Part shown: positions 128 to 13,005 of the stretch, piece after piece | Layout of the letters: each line of letters starts with the position of its first letter | Numbering within the stretch: the stretch's first letter is position 1 | Virus record (IMG/VR): IMGVR_UViG_3300024520_005213 | Coordinates: 1 to 27,798 of that record | Source: a virus | DNA: 27,798 bases | Direction: 5' to 3' (one strand) | Translations under genes and position numbers: made by a program | Notes under the pieces: generated by a model | The model's database searches: none | What the model saw: the letters and a program-made list of their open reading frames with translations, nothing else | What the model was told of the DNA's origin: nothing

Positions 128-937
128 ATGAGCAGACCCAAAAGACGATGGAGCGACAATGACCGGCACTTTGGACCGTTCACGCTGGCTCTCGGTGACT
201 ACCGACAATTCAGCATCATGCTGGATTCCGGCCACGACGAATATCCCGGCTGCTGCCTACGTCTGCGAGCATTCGGTGCAACGCTGATAATTGAACTACC
301 AGCCATTATTAAGCCGTGGCGAGAAAAAATTATTGCTGGATGGGATGCGGCAACAGTCGAGCGCCTGCGCCGCAACTGGTATTGGAATGAATATGCTCGC
401 GAGTACGGCTTCGCCCTTATTGAGGGTGAGGTGCATTTGCGCTACGGGCGGCAAACCAACGACAGTTCAACAGATCAGGGCGAAGTGTGGTTTCTGCCGT
501 GGATGCAATGGCGGCATGTCCGGCACACACTGTATGGTCTGGACGGTTTTTTTGTATGGGCGGAGCTTGAAGGGATGCCCTGGGAGCAGCGTCACGAACG
601 CACTTATCTGTGCCCGTCATTATCCTTTGAATTTGATGACTATGACGGAGAGCGCATTACTGCGCGAACCAAGATCGAGGAACGCGAATGGCTTTTCGGC
701 ACGGGTTGGTTCAGGTGGCTGTCACTGTTTCGCCGGGCAAAGGCCATCCGATCACTTGATATCAGGTTTTCAAGTGAGGTCGGCAAACGAAAGGGATCAT
801 GGAAGGGCGGAACGATCGGCCATTCCATCGAAATGCGATCCGGCGAACTGCATGAATCAGCATTCCAACGCTATTGCTGTGAACACGATATGGCATTCGT
901 CGGTGCACCTGACCACGACGAACAGGAACCAGAATGA
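128..937 (+). CDS. Hypothetical phage protein, 269 aa
   Basis: I do not recognise a named family. The protein is rich in Trp, Arg and Tyr, with a basic start (SRPKRRW), and has no signal peptide or membrane segment. A segment near residues 218-247 (GSWKGGTIGHSIEM, then ESAFQRYC) has the look of uncharacterised proteins in phage early regions, but that is recollection rather than proof. The ATG at 128 follows an AAAGGA sequence at 113-118, with 9 nt spacing. The end overlaps the next gene through ATGA (934-937), so the two are probably co-translated. The long alternative frame at 291-950 is a shadow of this gene. Confidence 0.75.
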   Translation: MSRPKRRWSDNDRHFGPFTLALGDYRQFSIMLDSGHDEYPGCCLRLRAFGATLIIELPAIIKPWREKIIAGWDAATVERLRRNWYWNEYAREYGFALIEGEVHLRYGRQTNDSSTDQGEVWFLPWMQWRHVRHTLYGLDGFFVWAELEGMPWEQRHERTYLCPSLSFEFDDYDGERITARTKIEEREWLFGTGWFRWLSLFRRAKAIRSLDIRFSSEVGKRKGSWKGGTIGHSIEMRSGELHESAFQRYCCEHDMAFVGAPDHDEQEPE

Positions 938-5963: not shown

Positions 5964-6136
5964 GCTGTTCAAAAGTCGGTTACCCGAACGTCAAGGCTGC
6001 CCGAACGGCGCTGCACGAATGTCAGAAACATCGCGGAAGGCTCAACCGCAGGAAAGAGGCATCATTTTATCGCTGCGAAAGGTGTGGACAGTTTCACATC
6101 ACGAAAGCGCTACCGGGAGAGAAACGATTTACCTAG
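5945..6136 (+). CDS. Small zinc-ribbon-like protein
   Basis: A 63-residue basic protein whose C-terminal part reads FYRCERCGQFHITK. The CxxC followed by an aromatic and a His looks like half of a zinc-binding knuckle; an upstream Cys (in ALHECQKH) and His may complete it. Similar tiny phage proteins ending '..FYRCp.CG.wHlT..' are common and of unknown function. No ATG is available; TTG at 5945 is preferred because AAGGGA (5933-5938) sits 6 nt upstream, with TTG 5939 as the alternative. The gene overlaps the 3' end of the methyltransferase, and its stop is 12 nt before the glycosyltransferase ATG. Confidence 0.65.
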   Translation: MAHRNVGCSKVGYPNVKAARTALHECQKHRGRLNRRKEASFYRCERCGQFHITKALPGEKRFT

Positions 6137-6147
6137 ATAAGCTGACC

Positions 6148-6879
6148 ATGATCGTGCCCGTCTACGAACAGCCACTTATGTTGGCCGAGCAACTGGCAAC
6201 ATGGGCTTGCTACGACGATCACTTGCTTGAAAGAATAGAGTTCATCGTCGTTGACGACTGCAGCCCGACCCCGATCGAACCAATCGTCAGGGCGGCGAAT
6301 CCGCGCATTCAGAAGTGCCTCTACCGGATGAACAAAGACGTTCAGTGGAACCGGAACATCTGTCGGAATGCTGCCGTGCAAGCCGCCGAAACAGAATGGG
6401 TGCTGAACGTTGACGCCGACCACATCCTTCCGCCCCTGAGCGCACTGCGGTTATTTGAAGTGAATCTCAACGCTGGCGCATGGTACAGGTTTCCGAGGTG
6501 GAGAATCGGCGCGGCCGACGAGACGCGCCGCAAAGACGCTATTCCGGATGACTGCGAGTTCGGCGAGATAAAGCCTCACATCGATTCGCATCTGATGGCA
6601 CGAGAGTTGTTCATGCGGTCTCCGTATGACCCGGAGTACACCGGTTTTCTCGGTGGCGGTTCGCCGTTCCTGGCTCGGTTGCAGGAAATTGCGCCGGTAG
6701 AACTGCTACCTGACAGCGTGCATTTGTACGTTCATACCCGGCACGAGGTTGCCGATGCATCGATATTGAATCTTGATCGTGATACCAGCAGATACAAGAG
6801 ACTCAGGGGCGAAAAAGAAATGGCCAAAGACACGGTGCCGAAAAAACTCTTTGAACACGATTGGGAGCGGGTGATTTGA
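6148..6879 (+). CDS. GT2-like (GT-A fold) glycosyltransferase
   Basis: The protein opens directly into the GT-A core: MIVPVYEQP (usual 'iviPvYN'), VVDDCSPTP at about 35-42 with the conserved Asp pair, RNAAVQAAETEWVLNVDAD with the metal-binding DAD at 89-91, and a later aromatic/Gly segment (YTGFLGGGSPFLARL) typical of the acceptor side. It would transfer a nucleotide-activated sugar in the cytoplasm; donor and acceptor cannot be read. ATG 6148 is chosen because the GT-A fold starts there. The frame is open up to an ATG at 6019, but those residues shadow the zinc-ribbon gene. The Shine-Dalgarno sequence is weak, so translation may be coupled to the preceding stop. Confidence 0.8.
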   Translation: MIVPVYEQPLMLAEQLATWACYDDHLLERIEFIVVDDCSPTPIEPIVRAANPRIQKCLYRMNKDVQWNRNICRNAAVQAAETEWVLNVDADHILPPLSALRLFEVNLNAGAWYRFPRWRIGAADETRRKDAIPDDCEFGEIKPHIDSHLMARELFMRSPYDPEYTGFLGGGSPFLARLQEIAPVELLPDSVHLYVHTRHEVADASILNLDRDTSRYKRLRGEKEMAKDTVPKKLFEHDWERVI

Positions 6880-6980
6880 CCGTCGTGACCATTAGAGAGT
6901 CAGTATTTTATCGGCCTGTGCCGCAGGCGCCAAACAATGCAGTCAAGCGAGATTGCATTCTGTATCGGACGCTACTATAA
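6876..6980 (+). CDS. Possible 34-aa small protein
   Basis: A TTG at 6876 overlaps the TGA of the glycosyltransferase gene and is preceded by a purine-rich GGGAGCGGGTGA stretch. The frame encodes a 34-residue basic peptide (TIRESVFYRPVPQAPNNAVK and so on, ending YRTLL) and ends with TAA at 6978-6980. It fills most of a 129-nt gap that would otherwise be empty before the next gene's ribosome binding site. Its length gives no statistical support, so it is a candidate only. If translated, it would feed ribosomes to the GT-D gene start at 7009. Confidence 0.25.
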   Translation: MTVVTIRESVFYRPVPQAPNNAVKRDCILYRTLL

Positions 6981-7008
6981 GCATGTTAGTCAATGGGAAG
7001 ACGTTCAC

Positions 7009-7671
7009 ATGAAAGGTTGGCCCAACGTTGTAGGCGAGTTTGAAACGGTCAAAAAACTGGCAGAGGGATATTCGATATCGCGTCACGGTGATGGCGAATT
7101 TAAGCTGCTTGATGGCAAAAGTCACACTAGATTACATTGGATAGAGAACCCGAAACTGACTGAAGAATTGCGTCATTGTATAACTAAACCAAATGCCGGT
7201 TGTTTGATTGGCATACCGACCATGGACCCAAAGGGGGACAAATACGAGAACTGGAAGCGCCATAAAATACGGTTTGCGAAATGGCTTAACACACGCACGA
7301 AATATTACTCTGCGTTTATATCGCGACCTGACTGCGGCACTGCATGGATGGAGTGCTATGAGTACGCCGAGGCGCTACGAACAATCTGGGCCGGCAAGCG
7401 AATAGCTATTGTCTGCGAGCCGGACAGCAAGCTTCTTACGGAGGTTCGCAACACGAATATGAGGGTCGACCACATCGTTTGTCCGTCTTACAATGCATAT
7501 GACGAGATTGACAGATTTGAGAGGGAGATATTGGCAATCAAGCCGGAAATCACGCTGTTGTCGGTCGGTTTGACGGCGACGGCATTGGCGAACAGAATCG
7601 CTGGACATGGTTTTCAAGCGGTTGATATGGGGAGCATAGGAGCCTTTTTTCAGAGATGGCCAATTACGTAG
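7009..7671 (+). CDS. GT-D fold glycosyltransferase (DUF1792-like)
   Basis: The order of motifs matches the GT-D/DUF1792 family: SISRHGDGEFKLLDG at residues 22-36, where D-G-E (28-30) is the family's metal-binding DXE; then CLIGIPTM; a SRP near FISRPDCG; IWAGKRIAIVCEP; the 'CPSYNAYDE' segment; and LLSVGLTATALANR followed by AVDMGSIG. Family members transfer glucose or related sugars onto glycans or glycoproteins. ATG 7009 has GGGAAG at 6995-7000 (8 nt spacing) and puts the GT-D core near the N terminus. An upstream ATG at 6937 would add 24 residues overlapping the possible small gene. The 3' end overlaps the dehydratase gene by 16 nt. Confidence 0.8.
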   Translation: MKGWPNVVGEFETVKKLAEGYSISRHGDGEFKLLDGKSHTRLHWIENPKLTEELRHCITKPNAGCLIGIPTMDPKGDKYENWKRHKIRFAKWLNTRTKYYSAFISRPDCGTAWMECYEYAEALRTIWAGKRIAIVCEPDSKLLTEVRNTNMRVDHIVCPSYNAYDEIDRFEREILAIKPEITLLSVGLTATALANRIAGHGFQAVDMGSIGAFFQRWPIT

Positions 7672-8594
7672 TAACCGGAGCCGGCGGCTCGATCGGCTCA
7701 CAATTATGCGCGAAGTTAGTTTCTCAGAACGTGGAAGGCATCGTTCTGGTGTCGCTGACCGAATCCGGGCTTTACAACGTCGAGCGCAAACTTCGGGCGA
7801 TTCGATCCAAGACAAAGATAACCGGGGTGCTTGGGAGTGTCTGTGATCTGGATTTGATGATTGACGTATGTGAGGGGGCAGATGTTGTGATTCACGCAGC
7901 GGCGCACAAGCACGTACCGATCTGCGAGGCGAATCCCCTTGCTGCGATCGAGAACAATGTTCGCGGCACAATCAAAGCCGCGCAGGCTGCCGAGATAGCC
8001 CGCGTCGGTCAGTTTTTACTGATATCCACTGACAAGGCAGTGCATCCCAAGTCGGTCATGGGCGCGACAAAGCGAGTCGCTGAAATGTTCGTCGCTGGCG
8101 AGATATCGGACACGATATTCACGACCGTCCGTTTCGGCAATGTCCTCGATTCTGCTGGATCGGTGCTTCCTCTGTGGCGCGAGCAAATAACCAAAGGTGG
8201 ACCGATAACGCTTACTGACGAACGCTGCGAGAGATATTTCATGTCGATCCCGCAGGCTTGTGAACTGATACTCGGGGCACTGAGAATGAGACGGCCCGGA
8301 ACGTTCGTATTTGACATGGGCAAGCCACGGAAGATGGTTGACCTGGCCAAACAGCTTATTCACGACTCGGGGAAGGACTGCGAAATCAAGATAACCGGTC
8401 TGCGGCCCGGAGAGAAACTTACCGAAGAACTGTACGCCGACAGCGACCTTGATCGAACCAGCCATCCGGAAATATTCGAAGTTAGGGGGTGGGCAAGATC
8501 GACGCAAATAGTATTGCTTCCGGATCTTCTTAGCGCGTCCAAGTGTAACAAACCGAAACTGGCGGTCGAACTGCTAATGGAAATGACATGCTGA
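7656..8594 (+). CDS. CapD/FlaA1-like nucleotide-sugar 4,6-dehydratase/epimerase
   Basis: An extended SDR enzyme of the Polysacc_synt_2 group. The NAD(P) loop is TGAGGSIGS at residues 7-15. AAAHKHVPICEANPLAAIEN and then STDKAVHPKSVMGATKR at 124-140 carry the active site. The usual SDR Tyr is Met135 (M-G-A-T-K139), as in WbpM/CapD-type enzymes. RFGNVLDSAGSVLPLW and GLRPGEKLTEELY are further hallmarks. It probably converts UDP-GlcNAc (or a similar sugar nucleotide) to a 4-keto-6-deoxy sugar. Its 312 residues match soluble FlaA1/PseB forms and lack the membrane region of full CapD. It would supply a rare sugar to the neighbouring transferases. No aminotransferase is seen nearby, so the product may be the keto sugar or be finished by host enzymes. 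Confidence 0.87.
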   Translation: MANYVVTGAGGSIGSQLCAKLVSQNVEGIVLVSLTESGLYNVERKLRAIRSKTKITGVLGSVCDLDLMIDVCEGADVVIHAAAHKHVPICEANPLAAIENNVRGTIKAAQAAEIARVGQFLLISTDKAVHPKSVMGATKRVAEMFVAGEISDTIFTTVRFGNVLDSAGSVLPLWREQITKGGPITLTDERCERYFMSIPQACELILGALRMRRPGTFVFDMGKPRKMVDLAKQLIHDSGKDCEIKITGLRPGEKLTEELYADSDLDRTSHPEIFEVRGWARSTQIVLLPDLLSASKCNKPKLAVELLMEMTC

Positions 8595-9094
8595 TATCTG
8601 ACAATCACAGGTCGCAATACCAGCAATATTTCGATCAACTGTCTTTCGACCATAAACCGAATCGCTGGCAGGACAAGGTGGAGCGGTTGTACCATCAAAC
8701 CAACTCAAAATCGGTCATTGATTATGGCTGCGGCATCATGGCCAGTCTCAGCGAGTTCAGTGACCTACCTATTATCAATTATGATCCCGGTGTCCCGGCT
8801 TACTCACAACTGCCGCCACCAGCCGACTTGGTTGTGTGTCTGGACGTTCTGGAACACGTCGAGCCTGATTGTATGGAACACGTTTTGAACCACGTTATTT
8901 TACTGGCGCAAAAGGCTTTATTCGTGACAATATCAACTCAGGAATCTACCAAACTATTGCCCAACGGTGCCCCTTGGCATTGCTTTGTCCGGGACAAACA
9001 TTGGTGGCGAGAAAAACTTCATTCATTCACAGAGGAAGCAGCGATGGGTGCGCGCAAAGAATACGTCGCTGTACTATATAAGTATGGACACTAA
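8588..9094 (+). CDS. Class I SAM-dependent methyltransferase-like protein (2)
   Basis: A 168-residue protein with a shortened SAM-binding motif (SVIDYGCGIMASLSEF, about residues 42-57), an Asp-bearing strand (IINYDPGVP) and LVVCLDVLEHVEPD, the motif-II region of Methyltransf_11/23-type enzymes. The core is compact, so the substrate-binding insert is minimal. It lies between the dehydratase and another methyltransferase, which suggests O- or N-methylation of a sugar. The ATG at 8588 overlaps the previous stop (TGA 8592-8594), and its own end overlaps the next start by 11 nt, so the genes are probably coupled. Confidence 0.75.
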   Translation: MLISDNHRSQYQQYFDQLSFDHKPNRWQDKVERLYHQTNSKSVIDYGCGIMASLSEFSDLPIINYDPGVPAYSQLPPPADLVVCLDVLEHVEPDCMEHVLNHVILLAQKALFVTISTQESTKLLPNGAPWHCFVRDKHWWREKLHSFTEEAAMGARKEYVAVLYKYGH

Positions 9095-9776
9095 AATCAC
9101 TGACGAAATTGTAGCGGGCTTTCGTGATAAAGATTCGAAGAAACCGCACTTCCGGGAACTGTACGAGAAGCACGACTTTCTGACCGCGTATTCCAAACAC
9201 ACCGACATGCGGGTTGAAGACAATCCGACCGGAGCCATTGGCCGGGTTGACGAGTGGGAGACTCACGGCATAATGCAATGGTATTTCATGATGGATATGG
9301 GTATGAGCCATGAACACCGGTTTCTCGATGTCGGCTGCGGAGTTGGCCGGGCCGCGAGAATCTTCGCACCATACCTGGATGTTGGTAATTACACTGGCAT
9401 CGACATCTCACCAAAAGCGCTTCGCTACGCAATGAACCTGTCCGAAAGCGAGGGATGGATCGACCGGCGACCTACATTCCTGATCAACTCTGACGCCGAT
9501 CTGGGGCAAGAGTTCGACTTCGCGTGGGCGCATTCCGTGTTTACTCATTTGCCAGACTGGCAGATTGAAAAGATGATTCACAATCTCGCCAAGATCGTTC
9601 ACCGCAAGTTCGCGTTCACGTACAAGTTCGCCGAGGTGCCGCGCCGCAGTGGCCTGAAACAATTTCAGTTTAATGTGCCGTTCTTCGAAAGCATCGCCAG
9701 GTCCGCTGGTTTCAGGCTGGAAGACCATCCGAAGAGGTGGCCTGCGGGGCAACGCACGATCGTACTGAGAAAATGA
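9084..9776 (+). CDS. Class I SAM-dependent methyltransferase (3)
   Basis: A full-length methyltransferase domain of 230 residues: RFLDVGCGVGRAARIFAPYL at about 79-98, YTGIDISPKALRYAMNL (strand 2 acidic residue), then FDFAWAHSVFTHLPDWQ (motif II region) and a C-terminal GFRLEDHPKRWPAGQRTIVL strand pair. Small-molecule or glycan methylation is the likely class of reaction; it has no DNA-methylase catalytic tetrapeptide. ATG 9084 is chosen because it starts just before the domain and overlaps the previous stop by 11 nt. The frame is open to an ATG at 8967, but those residues shadow the upstream gene. The stop overlaps the next start as ATGA. Confidence 0.82.
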   Translation: MDTKITDEIVAGFRDKDSKKPHFRELYEKHDFLTAYSKHTDMRVEDNPTGAIGRVDEWETHGIMQWYFMMDMGMSHEHRFLDVGCGVGRAARIFAPYLDVGNYTGIDISPKALRYAMNLSESEGWIDRRPTFLINSDADLGQEFDFAWAHSVFTHLPDWQIEKMIHNLAKIVHRKFAFTYKFAEVPRRSGLKQFQFNVPFFESIARSAGFRLEDHPKRWPAGQRTIVLRK

Positions 9777-10600
9777 CCCGTAAGCCCGTAGTGGCTACCC
9801 GCCGCGGCCGGACTGCCGTCGCTGAACCACCTCCATTTGTCGAGAGGCTGTACCAACTCGAAGTCGATCAGGGCAAGCGAAAAGACGAGAGCCTTTCGGT
9901 CGTTTGTTATTTCTGGAAAGAGCGAGGTTACAGTGAACCTCGAGGATTCGAGTCGTCACACGTCAATGCTTTGGCAAATGGTGTGGCCGCCAACCTGGCG
10001 CATCCACATCGATTTATCTGCATCACTGACGAGACTGAAGGCTTCTCGGAGAACGTTGAATTGATGCGGCTGCCAGAGGAAGCGCGCGAGGCGGCGAACG
10101 TTCCAACGGCTCAGGGCCACACGAGGTTTCCTTCCTGCTATCGTCGCCTGTGGACGTTCTCTGAGTCTGCCCGAGCGCTTGGCGATATGGTGCTGGTGCT
10201 GGATATCGACTGCTTTATCACTGGCTCCATCGATGCACTGTTTGATTTTCAACCGCTGGCTGATTTTGTCGGATGGAATCCAGTGCAGGCGTGGGGAAAA
10301 ACGAAGGTCGGTGGAGGAACATGGAGAATCAGGACTGGCACGAAAACGCGGATTTGGAGGCAGTTTTCGCAGGTGGAAGCGCTGAAAATCAAGAATCTTG
10401 GCTACAATGGATCAGATCAGGCTATTTTATCGTATAAACTAGCTGACCAACCTGTGTTTCCGAACGGATGGATACTTAACCGACAGGACATGCGGCGCCT
10501 GGGCGGTAAGGTTCCGGAAACAGCGAAAATTGTGCATTGCAACGGCCCGAAAGGCATGAAGGGGTTTTCGAGCATCAGAGACGTTCCATGGACGCGCTAG
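9773..10600 (+). CDS. GT-A glycosyltransferase-like protein with DxD
   Basis: After a basic, Pro-containing N-terminal tail (~40 residues), the protein has a GT8-like arrangement: LSVVCYFWKERGY, ICITDETEG, SCYRRLWTFSE, then VLVLDIDCFITGSIDALF with the metal-binding DID at 144-146, a Trp/Gly segment (WNPVQAWGKTKVGGGTWRIR), GSDQAILSYKL and IVHCNGPKGMKG near the end. The 'DxD ... DQ ... H.nGp' order is characteristic of retaining nucleotide-sugar transferases. It is the last gene of the cassette. ATG 9773 overlaps the previous stop (ATGA). The end overlaps the terminase start by 13 nt. Confidence 0.75.
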   Translation: MTRKPVVATRRGRTAVAEPPPFVERLYQLEVDQGKRKDESLSVVCYFWKERGYSEPRGFESSHVNALANGVAANLAHPHRFICITDETEGFSENVELMRLPEEAREAANVPTAQGHTRFPSCYRRLWTFSESARALGDMVLVLDIDCFITGSIDALFDFQPLADFVGWNPVQAWGKTKVGGGTWRIRTGTKTRIWRQFSQVEALKIKNLGYNGSDQAILSYKLADQPVFPNGWILNRQDMRRLGGKVPETAKIVHCNGPKGMKGFSSIRDVPWTR

Positions 10601-13005
10601 ACTCATTCAGCAACGCAGAACTGCTTGACGCGCTTTCCACGGTCACGGCAGAGAACGAACTGTTCGCCTGGTTCGATCCGGAATACCCGTACTGGTGGCA
10701 AAAGCAGTTTTTCGACGCAGGATCATTCGCAAAGCAGCGTTTAGTTATAGCGGCAAATGGATGCGTCAGTCCGTGGACGATTATTGAAACGGTTCCTCAA
10801 TCGCGCCGGATCGTAGATATTCTCGGTGAGACATCATTCGATGTGCGTTCGTGGGCCGGTGAATCCGAATGTGTTGCTCAAGGTCACGGCGTATTTTTGA
10901 AGAGCATCGAGCCAGCGTTTCGTTTTCATTTGGACAACGGCGAGTTCTTCGACTGCACCGATAAGCATCGGGTATTGACTGACGACGGGTGGCTTGCGGC
11001 CGGCCAGTTAGTTCGTGCTTCAAGTGGTCTCCGTTGGAAGCAAACAATTCAAGATTTTCAGGCCAATTGTGGCGTGGATGTTCATTCTTGTGATGGACAA
11101 CCTCGATTGGCGTCAGGTAGCGATGTAGTATCACTTCCACTAAAAGCCGATGCTCAAAAATCCTTCCTGTTTTATTTCGGGCCGATGGATGCAGAGGTGC
11201 GTATACCTCGATATAGCCATGCTTATCAAGCGCTCGCCCAGACTTCCATTGATGAGACTGCTCGCCAGATCGCGGACCTGTGCGAGCGGTTTGAAGATCC
11301 ATTCGCCTGCATCGCCTTTCTACACTCGTCCGATGTACACCAAGCATGTCGGCAATCCGTTGCTGAGTTAAGCCATTATGAATCAACTCAGCAATTACAG
11401 AATCATCCAACTTCTTTGGCGTCGTCTTTGGCCGAGAGGGGCGTATTTTGCGCCGATGAAGAAACGCCTGAAGGGAAGCAAAGGTTACGTCTATCTCCGA
11501 CGCAATATTTCGAATGGTGTGATGTTGGTCAAGCCTCGCTTGGATTAGAGCAACGTGAGTCTCACACGGAGATTTTCTACCCATCGACTCATCCTGTGTT
11601 GAAAGGAGACCGTAGAATTATATCTGTGGTCCCGCTCGGTTACCAGCCAATACTAGACTTTACAGTGGAAAAGACTGCATGTTATTGGTCTGGCGGCGCC
11701 ATCCATCACAACACAGGAAAATCCCAGACAGTTTGCGCTGAACTCGCCATGCACGTCACCGGCCGATACCCGCCATGGTGGAAAGGAGTCCGCTTTGATT
11801 ATGGTGGATGGGAGTGCTGGATAGGGTCGATCGACAACGACATGCAGAAGCGTGGGCCGCAGCGGGCGCTGTTGGGTCGCGAACTTGACCAACTGGGGAC
11901 CGGGTTAATTCCGAAGGACGCAATCGCCAAAGATCCCCAGTTAAGGCAGGCCGGCGTTAAGGGGGTTGTAGACACACTGGTAATCAACCATGCATCCGGC
12001 AAGCCGGTCACCATGAAGTTCCTGACGTTCGAACAGGGATGGAGAAAGTGGCAGTCCGGCGACCCAAAAATCATTCTCTGGGACGAAGAACCTGACGACT
12101 CCAACGTAGATCAAAAAGACATTCTCTCAGAAGTTCTTACTCGATTGGTGCGGAACAATGGAATTTTCATAGTCGGCTACACGCCGCTGTTGGGCGAAAC
12201 CGAACTGACCAGACACTTCATGCATTCCGAAGACGATCAGGTATGGCACATCAGCGCGACATGGGACGATGCGCCGCACATGGATGATGCCGCAACGGAA
12301 ATGATCAAGAAACAATACCCGGAGCATCAGCGCGAAGCGAGAACCAAGGGCATTCCGATGCTTGGTGAGGGCCGAATATTTCGTGTCGCTGAATCCGATT
12401 TGCTGGTGGACCCCTACGAGATACCGGATCATTGGGCCAGAATTTGTGGCATTGACCTTGGACTGGCGCATCCTGCGGCCTGCTCATGGCTGGCGTGGGA
12501 CCGGGATAGCGGTAAGACGGTTTTGTATGACTGCTGGCGGAAAAAAGGCGCGCTGACGAAGGAACATGCTGGCGTCATAAATGGTCGCGGCAGGTGGATA
12601 CCGGTCGCATGGCCGCATGATGGGGAGAAGCGAGACCCGAAAAGCGGCGCGCGATTCCACGATATTTATCGCGATGAATACAAAGTAAACATGCTGTCGA
12701 AGTCTGCCCGTTACAAAAGGGGAGTGGGCGGGGCACAGGCTCAGTGGCCAGTTATCGAGGACATTCGCAATGACATGGAAGCCAGCCAGTTTGAGGTTTT
12801 CCGTACCTGCAAATACTGGATTGATGAATATCGGAGCTACCACGTAAAGGACGGTAAAATAGTTTCGCTACGAGATGACACACTAAAAGCCAGTTTTTAC
12901 GCTAAGATGATGCAGCGATACTCAGTTTCGAAGCGAGAAGGTGACCGCATGATCAGCACGGTTCGGCAAATTCCAGCGCCAATCACTACCTCGGTGCGCC
13001 GATGA
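10588..13005 (+). CDS. terL: Terminase large subunit with an intein in the Walker A motif
   Basis: The packaging motor ATPase/nuclease. The 805-residue precursor minus a 317-residue intein (residues 59-375) leaves 488 residues, normal for TerL. Removing the intein joins IAANG to TGKSQT, rebuilding the P-loop AANGTGKS, followed by AMHVTGRYPPWWKG, a common TerL context. Walker B is IILWDEEPD (D499, E500, E501 in the precursor). The C-terminal RNase H-like nuclease starts at CGIDLGLAHPAA (Asp 623) and has a late acidic patch (SLRDDTLKASFYA). ATG 10588 starts the domain and overlaps the glycosyltransferase gene; an in-frame ATG at 10537 adds residues shadowing that gene. Without splicing the ATPase should be inactive. 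No small-terminase gene is evident nearby. Confidence 0.93.
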   Translation: MDALDSFSNAELLDALSTVTAENELFAWFDPEYPYWWQKQFFDAGSFAKQRLVIAANGCVSPWTIIETVPQSRRIVDILGETSFDVRSWAGESECVAQGHGVFLKSIEPAFRFHLDNGEFFDCTDKHRVLTDDGWLAAGQLVRASSGLRWKQTIQDFQANCGVDVHSCDGQPRLASGSDVVSLPLKADAQKSFLFYFGPMDAEVRIPRYSHAYQALAQTSIDETARQIADLCERFEDPFACIAFLHSSDVHQACRQSVAELSHYESTQQLQNHPTSLASSLAERGVFCADEETPEGKQRLRLSPTQYFEWCDVGQASLGLEQRESHTEIFYPSTHPVLKGDRRIISVVPLGYQPILDFTVEKTACYWSGGAIHHNTGKSQTVCAELAMHVTGRYPPWWKGVRFDYGGWECWIGSIDNDMQKRGPQRALLGRELDQLGTGLIPKDAIAKDPQLRQAGVKGVVDTLVINHASGKPVTMKFLTFEQGWRKWQSGDPKIILWDEEPDDSNVDQKDILSEVLTRLVRNNGIFIVGYTPLLGETELTRHFMHSEDDQVWHISATWDDAPHMDDAATEMIKKQYPEHQREARTKGIPMLGEGRIFRVAESDLLVDPYEIPDHWARICGIDLGLAHPAACSWLAWDRDSGKTVLYDCWRKKGALTKEHAGVINGRGRWIPVAWPHDGEKRDPKSGARFHDIYRDEYKVNMLSKSARYKRGVGGAQAQWPVIEDIRNDMEASQFEVFRTCKYWIDEYRSYHVKDGKIVSLRDDTLKASFYAKMMQRYSVSKREGDRMISTVRQIPAPITTSVRR
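10781..11584 (-). CDS. HTH-HNH homing endonuclease encoded antisense inside the intein
   Basis: 267 codons on the minus strand. Residues ~12-48 and ~58-100 look like two helix-turn-helix units (TIRNIASEIDVTFASLQAFL; LTQQRIADMLGVHRTSVERR). The linker QSHQWKSGRALDKHGYIEVY matches the 'W.gGr..d..GYv.vy.p.HP' lead-in of phage HNH_3 endonucleases. The nuclease core is at ~144-190: EHRLLVE, RYLTPIEVVHHKNEHPRHNW and PENLELFASNGDHLKHELTG, with His 164/165, Asn 173/177 and His 187 or 190 as likely active-site residues. The last ~70 residues are Arg-rich and antisense to the intein's N-terminal splicing domain; they may be readthrough to the first stop. The start has AGGA 7 nt upstream and a perfect TATAAT before it. 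It would cut intein-less terL alleles to drive homing. Confidence 0.88.
   Translation of the reverse strand: MGRKSPCETHVALIQARLDQHHTIRNIASEIDVTFASLQAFLHRRKIRPSRPKTTPKKLDDSVIAELIHNGLTQQRIADMLGVHRTSVERRCRRMDLQTARTGPRSGEQSHQWKSGRALDKHGYIEVYAPLHPSARNKTGRIFEHRLLVEVILHRYLTPIEVVHHKNEHPRHNWPENLELFASNGDHLKHELTGRPQATRRQSIPDAYRCSRRTRRCPNENETLARCSSKIRRDLEQHIRIHRPTNAHRMMSHREYLRSGAIEEPFQ
11585..11645 (-). promoter_or_regulatory. Candidate promoter and RBS of the antisense endonuclease
   Basis: On the minus strand a perfect -10 box TATAAT lies at 11622-11617. A weak -35-like TGGTAA (three of six matches to TTGACA) lies at 11645-11640, 17 bp away. The predicted start of transcription near 11610 would leave a leader of about 26 nt. 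AGGA at 11595-11592 is 7 nt before the ATG at 11584. All of this lies inside sense codons of the intein (around residues 275-295). The -10 sequence is seen directly; activity is inferred. Confidence 0.5.

Follow-up and report, generated by a model that had tools for sequence, protein, structure and literature searches.

Phage TerL inteins with an HNH endonuclease gene on the antisense strand

Inteins are the textbook case in which a splicing domain harbors an endonuclease in its own reading frame. In a viral sequence of 27,798 nt (record IMGVR_UViG_3300024520_005213, hereinafter the window, whose numbering is used for all positions), the TerL gene contains an insert that resembles an intein when read on the sense strand and an HNH homing endonuclease gene when read on the opposite one. 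The question raised by this locus is whether both readings are real, and if so, whether they constitute one mobile element. Features of the locus are listed in Table 1.

Table 1. Features of the TerL locus in the window, with the intein on the plus strand and the HNH gene with its putative expression signals on the minus strand
Feature	Position	Strand	Comment
TerL N-extein	10588..10761	+	58 aa, ending ...RLVIAANG directly ahead of Walker A TGKS
Class 1 intein	10762..11712	+	317 aa, C1 ... HHN, +1 Thr next
Intein N-terminal splicing domain	10762..11016	+	Blocks A to B; block B His 10966-10968; predicted HINT half, pLDDT ~97
Intein middle, residues 90-270	11029..11571	+	Faces HNH core and HTHs; predicted disordered (pLDDT ~45); stop-free
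Intein C-terminal splicing domain	11572..11712	+	Blocks F and G, ...GGAIHHN
TerL C-extein	11713..13005	+	Rest of Walker A (T|GKS), then Walker B DE and nuclease; Terminase_6N
Antisense HNH homing endonuclease gene	10781..11584	-	267 aa, ATG at 11584, stop 10783-10781
Two N-terminal helix-turn-helix units of HNH protein	11303..11569	-	Residues 6-44 and 61-94
HNH core	11009..11248	-	Residues 113-192: W113...EHR144-146...VVHH162-165...N173...N177...N184...H187
C-terminal helices of HNH protein	10811..10927	-	Residues 220-258, facing intein residues 17-56; folds predicted for both strands, with apparent constraint on each
-35-like hexamer CTGGTA	11641..11646	-	Weak; 18-bp spacer; putative antisense promoter
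-10 hexamer TATAAT	11617..11622	-	End 32 nt ahead of HNH ATG; within intein C-terminal domain codons
Shine-Dalgarno-like AGGA	11592..11595	-	7 nt ahead of HNH ATG

The TerL gene occupies positions 10588–13005 of the plus strand; its start at ATG 10588 is assumed, and an in-frame TTG at 10537 is also present upstream. The intein extends from C59 to N375 and carries the class 1 residues C59 (C1), H127 of block B, H374–N375, and T376 at position +1; no variation is seen among 58 sense proteins at C1, at the block B His or at the terminal Asn. In the AlphaFold model two HINT halves are predicted with high confidence, and the residues between them, facing the HNH core and the HTHs, are predicted to be disordered. 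The Ssp DnaB mini-intein is matched both by this model in Foldseek (E 7.7e-7) and by the sense protein in profile comparison (4.6e-19), the latter also matching solved mini-inteins and TerLs, and the Intein_splicing domain is found in 43 of the 58 homologues. Catalytic residues and the HINT fold thus satisfy the definition of a class 1 intein, the splicing activity itself being inferred, and the middle part, disordered and unlike a homing endonuclease, does not satisfy that of a canonical in-frame endonuclease.

The best match of the antisense protein among the PHROG HNH endonucleases is phrog_7545 (E 1.5e-19, residues 61–200). A Pfam search with the window protein returned HTH matches only, HNH_3 not being reached at E 0.01; HNH_3 is found in 56 of its 58 homologues, and E144, R146, H165, N173, N177, N184 and H187 of the core are invariant across the alignment of these 58. 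The AlphaFold model (mean pLDDT 88.5) consists of two HTH units, followed by the HNH core and C-terminal helices; when it was compared to PDB with Foldseek, nothing matched significantly. The protein therefore has the signature of an HNH_3 homing endonuclease, that is, an HNH active site with HTH DNA-binding domains, and cleavage of the intein-less allele is inferred. The initial annotation had proposed a 317-residue class 1 intein in TerL with no endonuclease motif in frame, and a 267-residue HTH–HNH protein on the opposite strand of its DNA. Both proposals held, the former in the catalytic residues, HINT fold and disordered middle, the latter in the open reading frame, PHROG match, conserved core and predicted fold; they are refined by two predicted HTH units and by a C-terminal helical domain which, according to the model, is dual-coded with the N-terminal splicing domain of the intein.

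Relatives were sought in IMG/VR, GTDB contigs and cultured phages with alignment A2 as the query, alignment A4 being too diverse for that. We identified 350 antisense placements of the HNH inside inteins in 349 records, all in one overlap phase and none in frame. As the scans overlap on some contigs, the number of distinct antisense HNH sequences, 245, is a fair count; these fall into 136 clusters when grouped at 70% identity. Each of the 80 top hits of the profile scan is antisense in an intein, and scans starting from three further subclades and from the intein N-domain had the same antisense outcome. The layout is found in an IMG/VR relative (L001), there in a different TerL, in two MAG contigs (L097 and L098), and in the cultured Pectobacterium/Dickeya phages Ymer, Abuela, Sabo, Koroua, Amona, Taid, Pappous and Setonix. 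In these phages the element is inside the TerL CDS, which is labelled hypothetical in seven of them, including Ymer, and is missing from the annotation of Setonix. Cultured-phage rows were left out of the structure models. None of about 42 free-standing HNH relatives, taken as a control, lies opposite an intein, and none of 18 close intein relatives is without the HNH. The two-strand arrangement is thus a family and not a single case, and a chance origin is excluded because 245 distinct antisense HNHs share the arrangement and the phase, compared to none of the free-standing relatives. A single antisense origin of the HNH clade is not rejected (AU p 0.82); it remains a compatible but unproven possibility.

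In the common phase, the third codon position of the HNH gene faces the second position of the sense frame, and the second faces the third, therefore selection on each strand is readily distinguished. In the HNH core of 48 disjoint pairs, the ratio of changes in the third and second HNH positions is 5.0 (44 pairs versus 1), and in the TerL C-extein of the same pairs the corresponding sense ratio is 4.66 (44 versus 0). For the closer pairs of the first set, the sense ratio is 3.2 for the intein N-domain, falls to 0.23 over the HNH core, and is 8.2 for the intein C-domain and 6.3 for the C-extein; the constrained strand therefore flips twice within a single open reading frame. Hence, the sense frame is constrained in the splicing domains and exteins, and the antisense frame, in the HNH core. 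Where the HNH tail overlaps the N-terminal splicing domain (intein residues 15–56), the sense ratio is 1.06, compared to 2.05 without the overlap, as would be expected if both strands matter; this is no more than suggestive, as pair divergences differ between the groups.

The sense frame across the HNH core has no stops in 229 antisense genes, with 2.66 per gene expected when their own synonymous codons are shuffled. In free-standing HNH relatives, on the contrary, the opposing frame has 4.42 stops per gene, equal to the shuffled value, and only one of 40 is open, the other 39 containing stops. Therefore, in all likelihood translation covers the whole TerL–intein precursor, which makes the insert a protein element and not an RNA intron.

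The HNH gene starts approximately 38–44 codons short of the last intein residue in most family members, and this region is enriched in candidate expression signals. A Shine–Dalgarno sequence of 5 nt or longer is located ahead of 34% of HNH starts compared to 2.9% of control positions; for sigma70-like promoters with 10 or more of 12 bases matched, the figures are 31% of representatives and 0.3% of controls, with the end of the –10 box mostly 20–39 nt ahead of the HNH start. As this DNA also encodes conserved intein residues, a stricter control was applied, in which codons were re-drawn locus by locus with the sense protein and codon usage unchanged. The enrichment remained, with 28 promoters observed in 94 loci at the same threshold compared to 4.5 expected, and 43 Shine–Dalgarno sequences compared to 12.4 expected. 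One locus (L182) has a perfect TTGACA–17–TATAAT. The signals of the window itself are modest, with a weak –35 box and a Shine–Dalgarno sequence of 4 nt only; a first promoter scan restricted to the window gave merely a chance-level site, and the signal emerged on family-wide comparison ahead of the HNH starts. Separate expression of the HNH thus appears likely, but it is inferred from sequence alone, without RNA data, and so is its timing.

These data bear on the remaining proposals of the initial annotation. That a mobility enzyme and a splicing element share DNA on opposite strands is supported by the absence of in-frame placements among the 350, and that the endonuclease can be expressed separately, by the enriched antisense promoters and ribosome-binding sites, timing, cleavage and splicing being inferred. 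None of the outcomes named as refuting was observed: the protein has HNH-annotated homologues, including free-standing ones, and is not merely a reverse complement of intein relatives, and constraint is not confined to the sense strand, as codon positions in the HNH core demonstrate.

Data on mobility come from occupied and empty sites. The Pseudoalteromonas phages PHS3 and AL are ~95–99% identical in DNA around the site, and their sole difference there is a 900-bp intein in TerL of PHS3, inserted between GGAG and SGKS; the comparison of near-identical phages with and without the element rests on this one pair. TerLs 63–74% identical to that of the window (L141–L145) have an uninterrupted Walker A, AANGVGKS. 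Precise presence or absence at a conserved site, expected of a homing intein, is thus observed in both comparisons. All mapped insertions are in the P-loop, 179 at x^[CST]GK, 47 at GK^[ST], and 15 at degenerate or nearby positions. The trees of the HNH and the intein imply three to four changes of site each and are in little conflict (4 of 24 supported splits); the TerL tree implies ten changes and conflicts with 11 of 24 HNH splits. As the HNH and intein trees agree with each other more than with TerL, the element likely travels as a unit across TerL lineages.

Several details of the sites may be added. The residue at +1 in the window (11713–11715) is Thr, needed for splicing, and Val in the intein-free relatives, as if a splicing-friendly residue arrived with the insertion; as these empty relatives have Val and not Thr at this position, the exact cut site in the window phage is inferred. 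Sister elements in similar TerLs occupy two P-loop sites 9 bp apart, AGNQ^SGKT in L030/L031 and AGNQSGK^T in L034, as if the element moved by three codons. In L166 and L175, antisense-HNH inteins are found at a third P-loop position (GNQYGKGE^T and GNQFGKNE^S, respectively), in host proteins without a Pfam terminase match. In PHS3 (L004, KX912252, 1724–3702), GenBank gives a truncated TerL and a separate HNH gene; the TerL frame actually continues through the intein.

The explanation we consider very probable is a mobile homing intein comprised of a splicing element and an independently transcribed antisense endonuclease gene in the same DNA. The two open reading frames, both predicted folds, selection on two strands, expression signals, exact presence or absence of the unit, and the discordant TerL phylogeny are shown computationally; cleavage, splicing and early timing are inferred, with no biochemical or RNA data. 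In this model, the class 1 intein interrupts the Walker A loop of TerL on the sense strand, the whole precursor would be translated, and the intein would excise itself, allowing TerL to function. The antisense gene, driven by a promoter and ribosome-binding site of its own located within the insert, would produce a tandem-HTH/HNH endonuclease, presumably early, ahead of late terL. The enzyme would cut at the conserved P-loop codons in intein-free terL, whether of a co-infecting or a resident phage, and repair from the occupied copy would install the intein and the endonuclease together. A bolder reading, which we also regard as likely, is that this is a widespread, undescribed class of mobile inteins of tailed phages, with the splicing element and the homing endonuclease on opposite strands in one fixed phase, the promoter and ribosome-binding site of the endonuclease in synonymous positions of the intein, and, in a part of the family, folded domains of both proteins on the same base pairs.

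Four other readings have been considered. The antisense frame could be a chance one opposite a real in-frame intein insert, with a spurious HNH likeness, and long antisense open reading frames are indeed common in the window. Against this, the homology to HNH proteins is specific and includes free-standing genes, the active-site residues are conserved, substitutions track HNH codon positions, which by itself refutes the reading, and the antisense protein is predicted to fold confidently where the sense region opposite the HNH core and HTHs is predicted to be disordered. Conversely, the HNH could be the only real gene of the insert, the sense frame belonging to a group I intron or to a broken or split TerL, as the annotation of PHS3, with a truncated TerL and an adjoining HNH gene, might suggest. 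This disagrees with the invariant catalytic residues of the intein, the constraint on splicing domains in the sense frame, the HINT fold, and the absence of sense stops in 229 HNH cores, with ~2.7 per gene expected; moreover, an Rfam search of positions 10400–12100 gave no match at E up to 1, so that no group I ribozyme core was identified, and the sense frame is open. Both readings are practically ruled out: a chance antisense ORF, an RNA intron and a broken TerL were rejected on the evidence of codon-position selection, the open sense frame, Rfam and HINT.

The HNH could also serve the phage, either as a packaging nuclease acting with TerL, in the manner of HK97-like HNH proteins, or by regulating terL from the antisense strand, without being involved in homing. 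It resides in terL, an antisense transcript across terL could repress it, and HNH proteins beside terminases function in packaging in some phages (Kala 2014, as cited in PMC10448857). Still, the HNH moves with the intein across TerL lineages, its insertion is limited to the P-loop sequence, and it is absent from the TerL relatives of the window and from the near-identical AL; the clean absence from AL makes a packaging or regulatory role less likely, and we regard this reading as improbable. Finally, homing cycles often finish in degenerate enzymes, and the HNH could be a former homing enzyme that now cuts little and persists mostly by hitch-hiking with the intein. This seems even less plausible, as the family has retained the catalytic residues, promoter and Shine–Dalgarno sequence, purifying selection on the core is strong, and no HNH-less inteins are found among the 18 close intein relatives.

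Compared to known systems, the preferred element, a homing intein with an antisense endonuclease gene, combines familiar parts in an unfamiliar arrangement. Canonical homing inteins, including those in the TerL P-loop of mycobacteriophages (Kelley 2016, PMC5050341), share with it the class 1 blocks, the insertion in the TerL ATPase domain and the location of the endonuclease between the N- and C-terminal splicing domains, but here the endonuclease is encoded antisense, by a separate gene with its own putative promoter and start, outside the spliced protein. The ShiLan domain, a hidden out-of-frame HNH in phage methylases (Arsenault 2025, PMC11855218), also overlaps an open host-gene frame with a disordered sense reading, and its HNH is a distant relative of the antisense one (E ~1e-7); however, it is encoded on the same strand, and neither splicing domains nor a ribosome-binding site have been found there, whereas here the strand is opposite and the intein domains are clear. 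Homing genes of nuclear group I introns (I-DsqI, Dir.S956-2; PMC9548176) are likewise antisense to the host gene within a self-splicing element and separately transcribed, but there the element is an RNA intron, located in a region of eukaryotic rDNA whose host strand does not encode protein, and here both strands appear to be translated. In split inteins with a homing endonuclease gene between the halves (Dassa 2009 as cited; MIJ3 PolB, PMC6892783), the endonuclease is also a separate gene inside the intein, but here the intein stays one continuous open reading frame across it. Free-standing HTH–HNH_3 phage endonucleases (phrog_7545 and others) share the domain plan and the active site, and differ in having no intein overlap and, as described above, an interrupted opposing frame.

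The initial annotation knew of no described case, and we found no earlier description of an antisense endonuclease in an intein in the full-text literature searched, which excludes most subscription papers and preprints, among them Gosselin et al. 2025 (bioRxiv 10.1101/2025.01.02.630785) on actinobacteriophage inteins of “non-canonical architecture.” As the element is apparently still a homing intein in function, itself inferred, it is likely a variant rather than something categorically new.

In such an element, the endonuclease and splicing would be uncoupled in expression yet inseparable in DNA; the homing enzyme could be produced early, from a host-type promoter, independently of late terL, and many mutations would be seen by two proteins. 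As a natural case of paired sense and antisense genes in 136 clusters, the family can be used to test theories of overlapping coding and of the homing cycle, and homing itself can be tested directly with the PHS3/AL phage pair. The element is missed by annotation pipelines, which call terL hypothetical or truncated.

As to the neighboring genes, the protein encoded at 128–937 (plus strand), near the left end of the contig, matches the CBASS inhibitor Acb3 (Pfam PF25187, E 3.3e-75), that is, an anti-defence gene. Directly upstream of terL, the region 6019–10600 (plus strand) encodes glycosyltransferases, a Polysacc_synt_2 epimerase of polysaccharide biosynthesis and methyltransferases, and similar-looking open reading frames are located upstream of TerL in L001.
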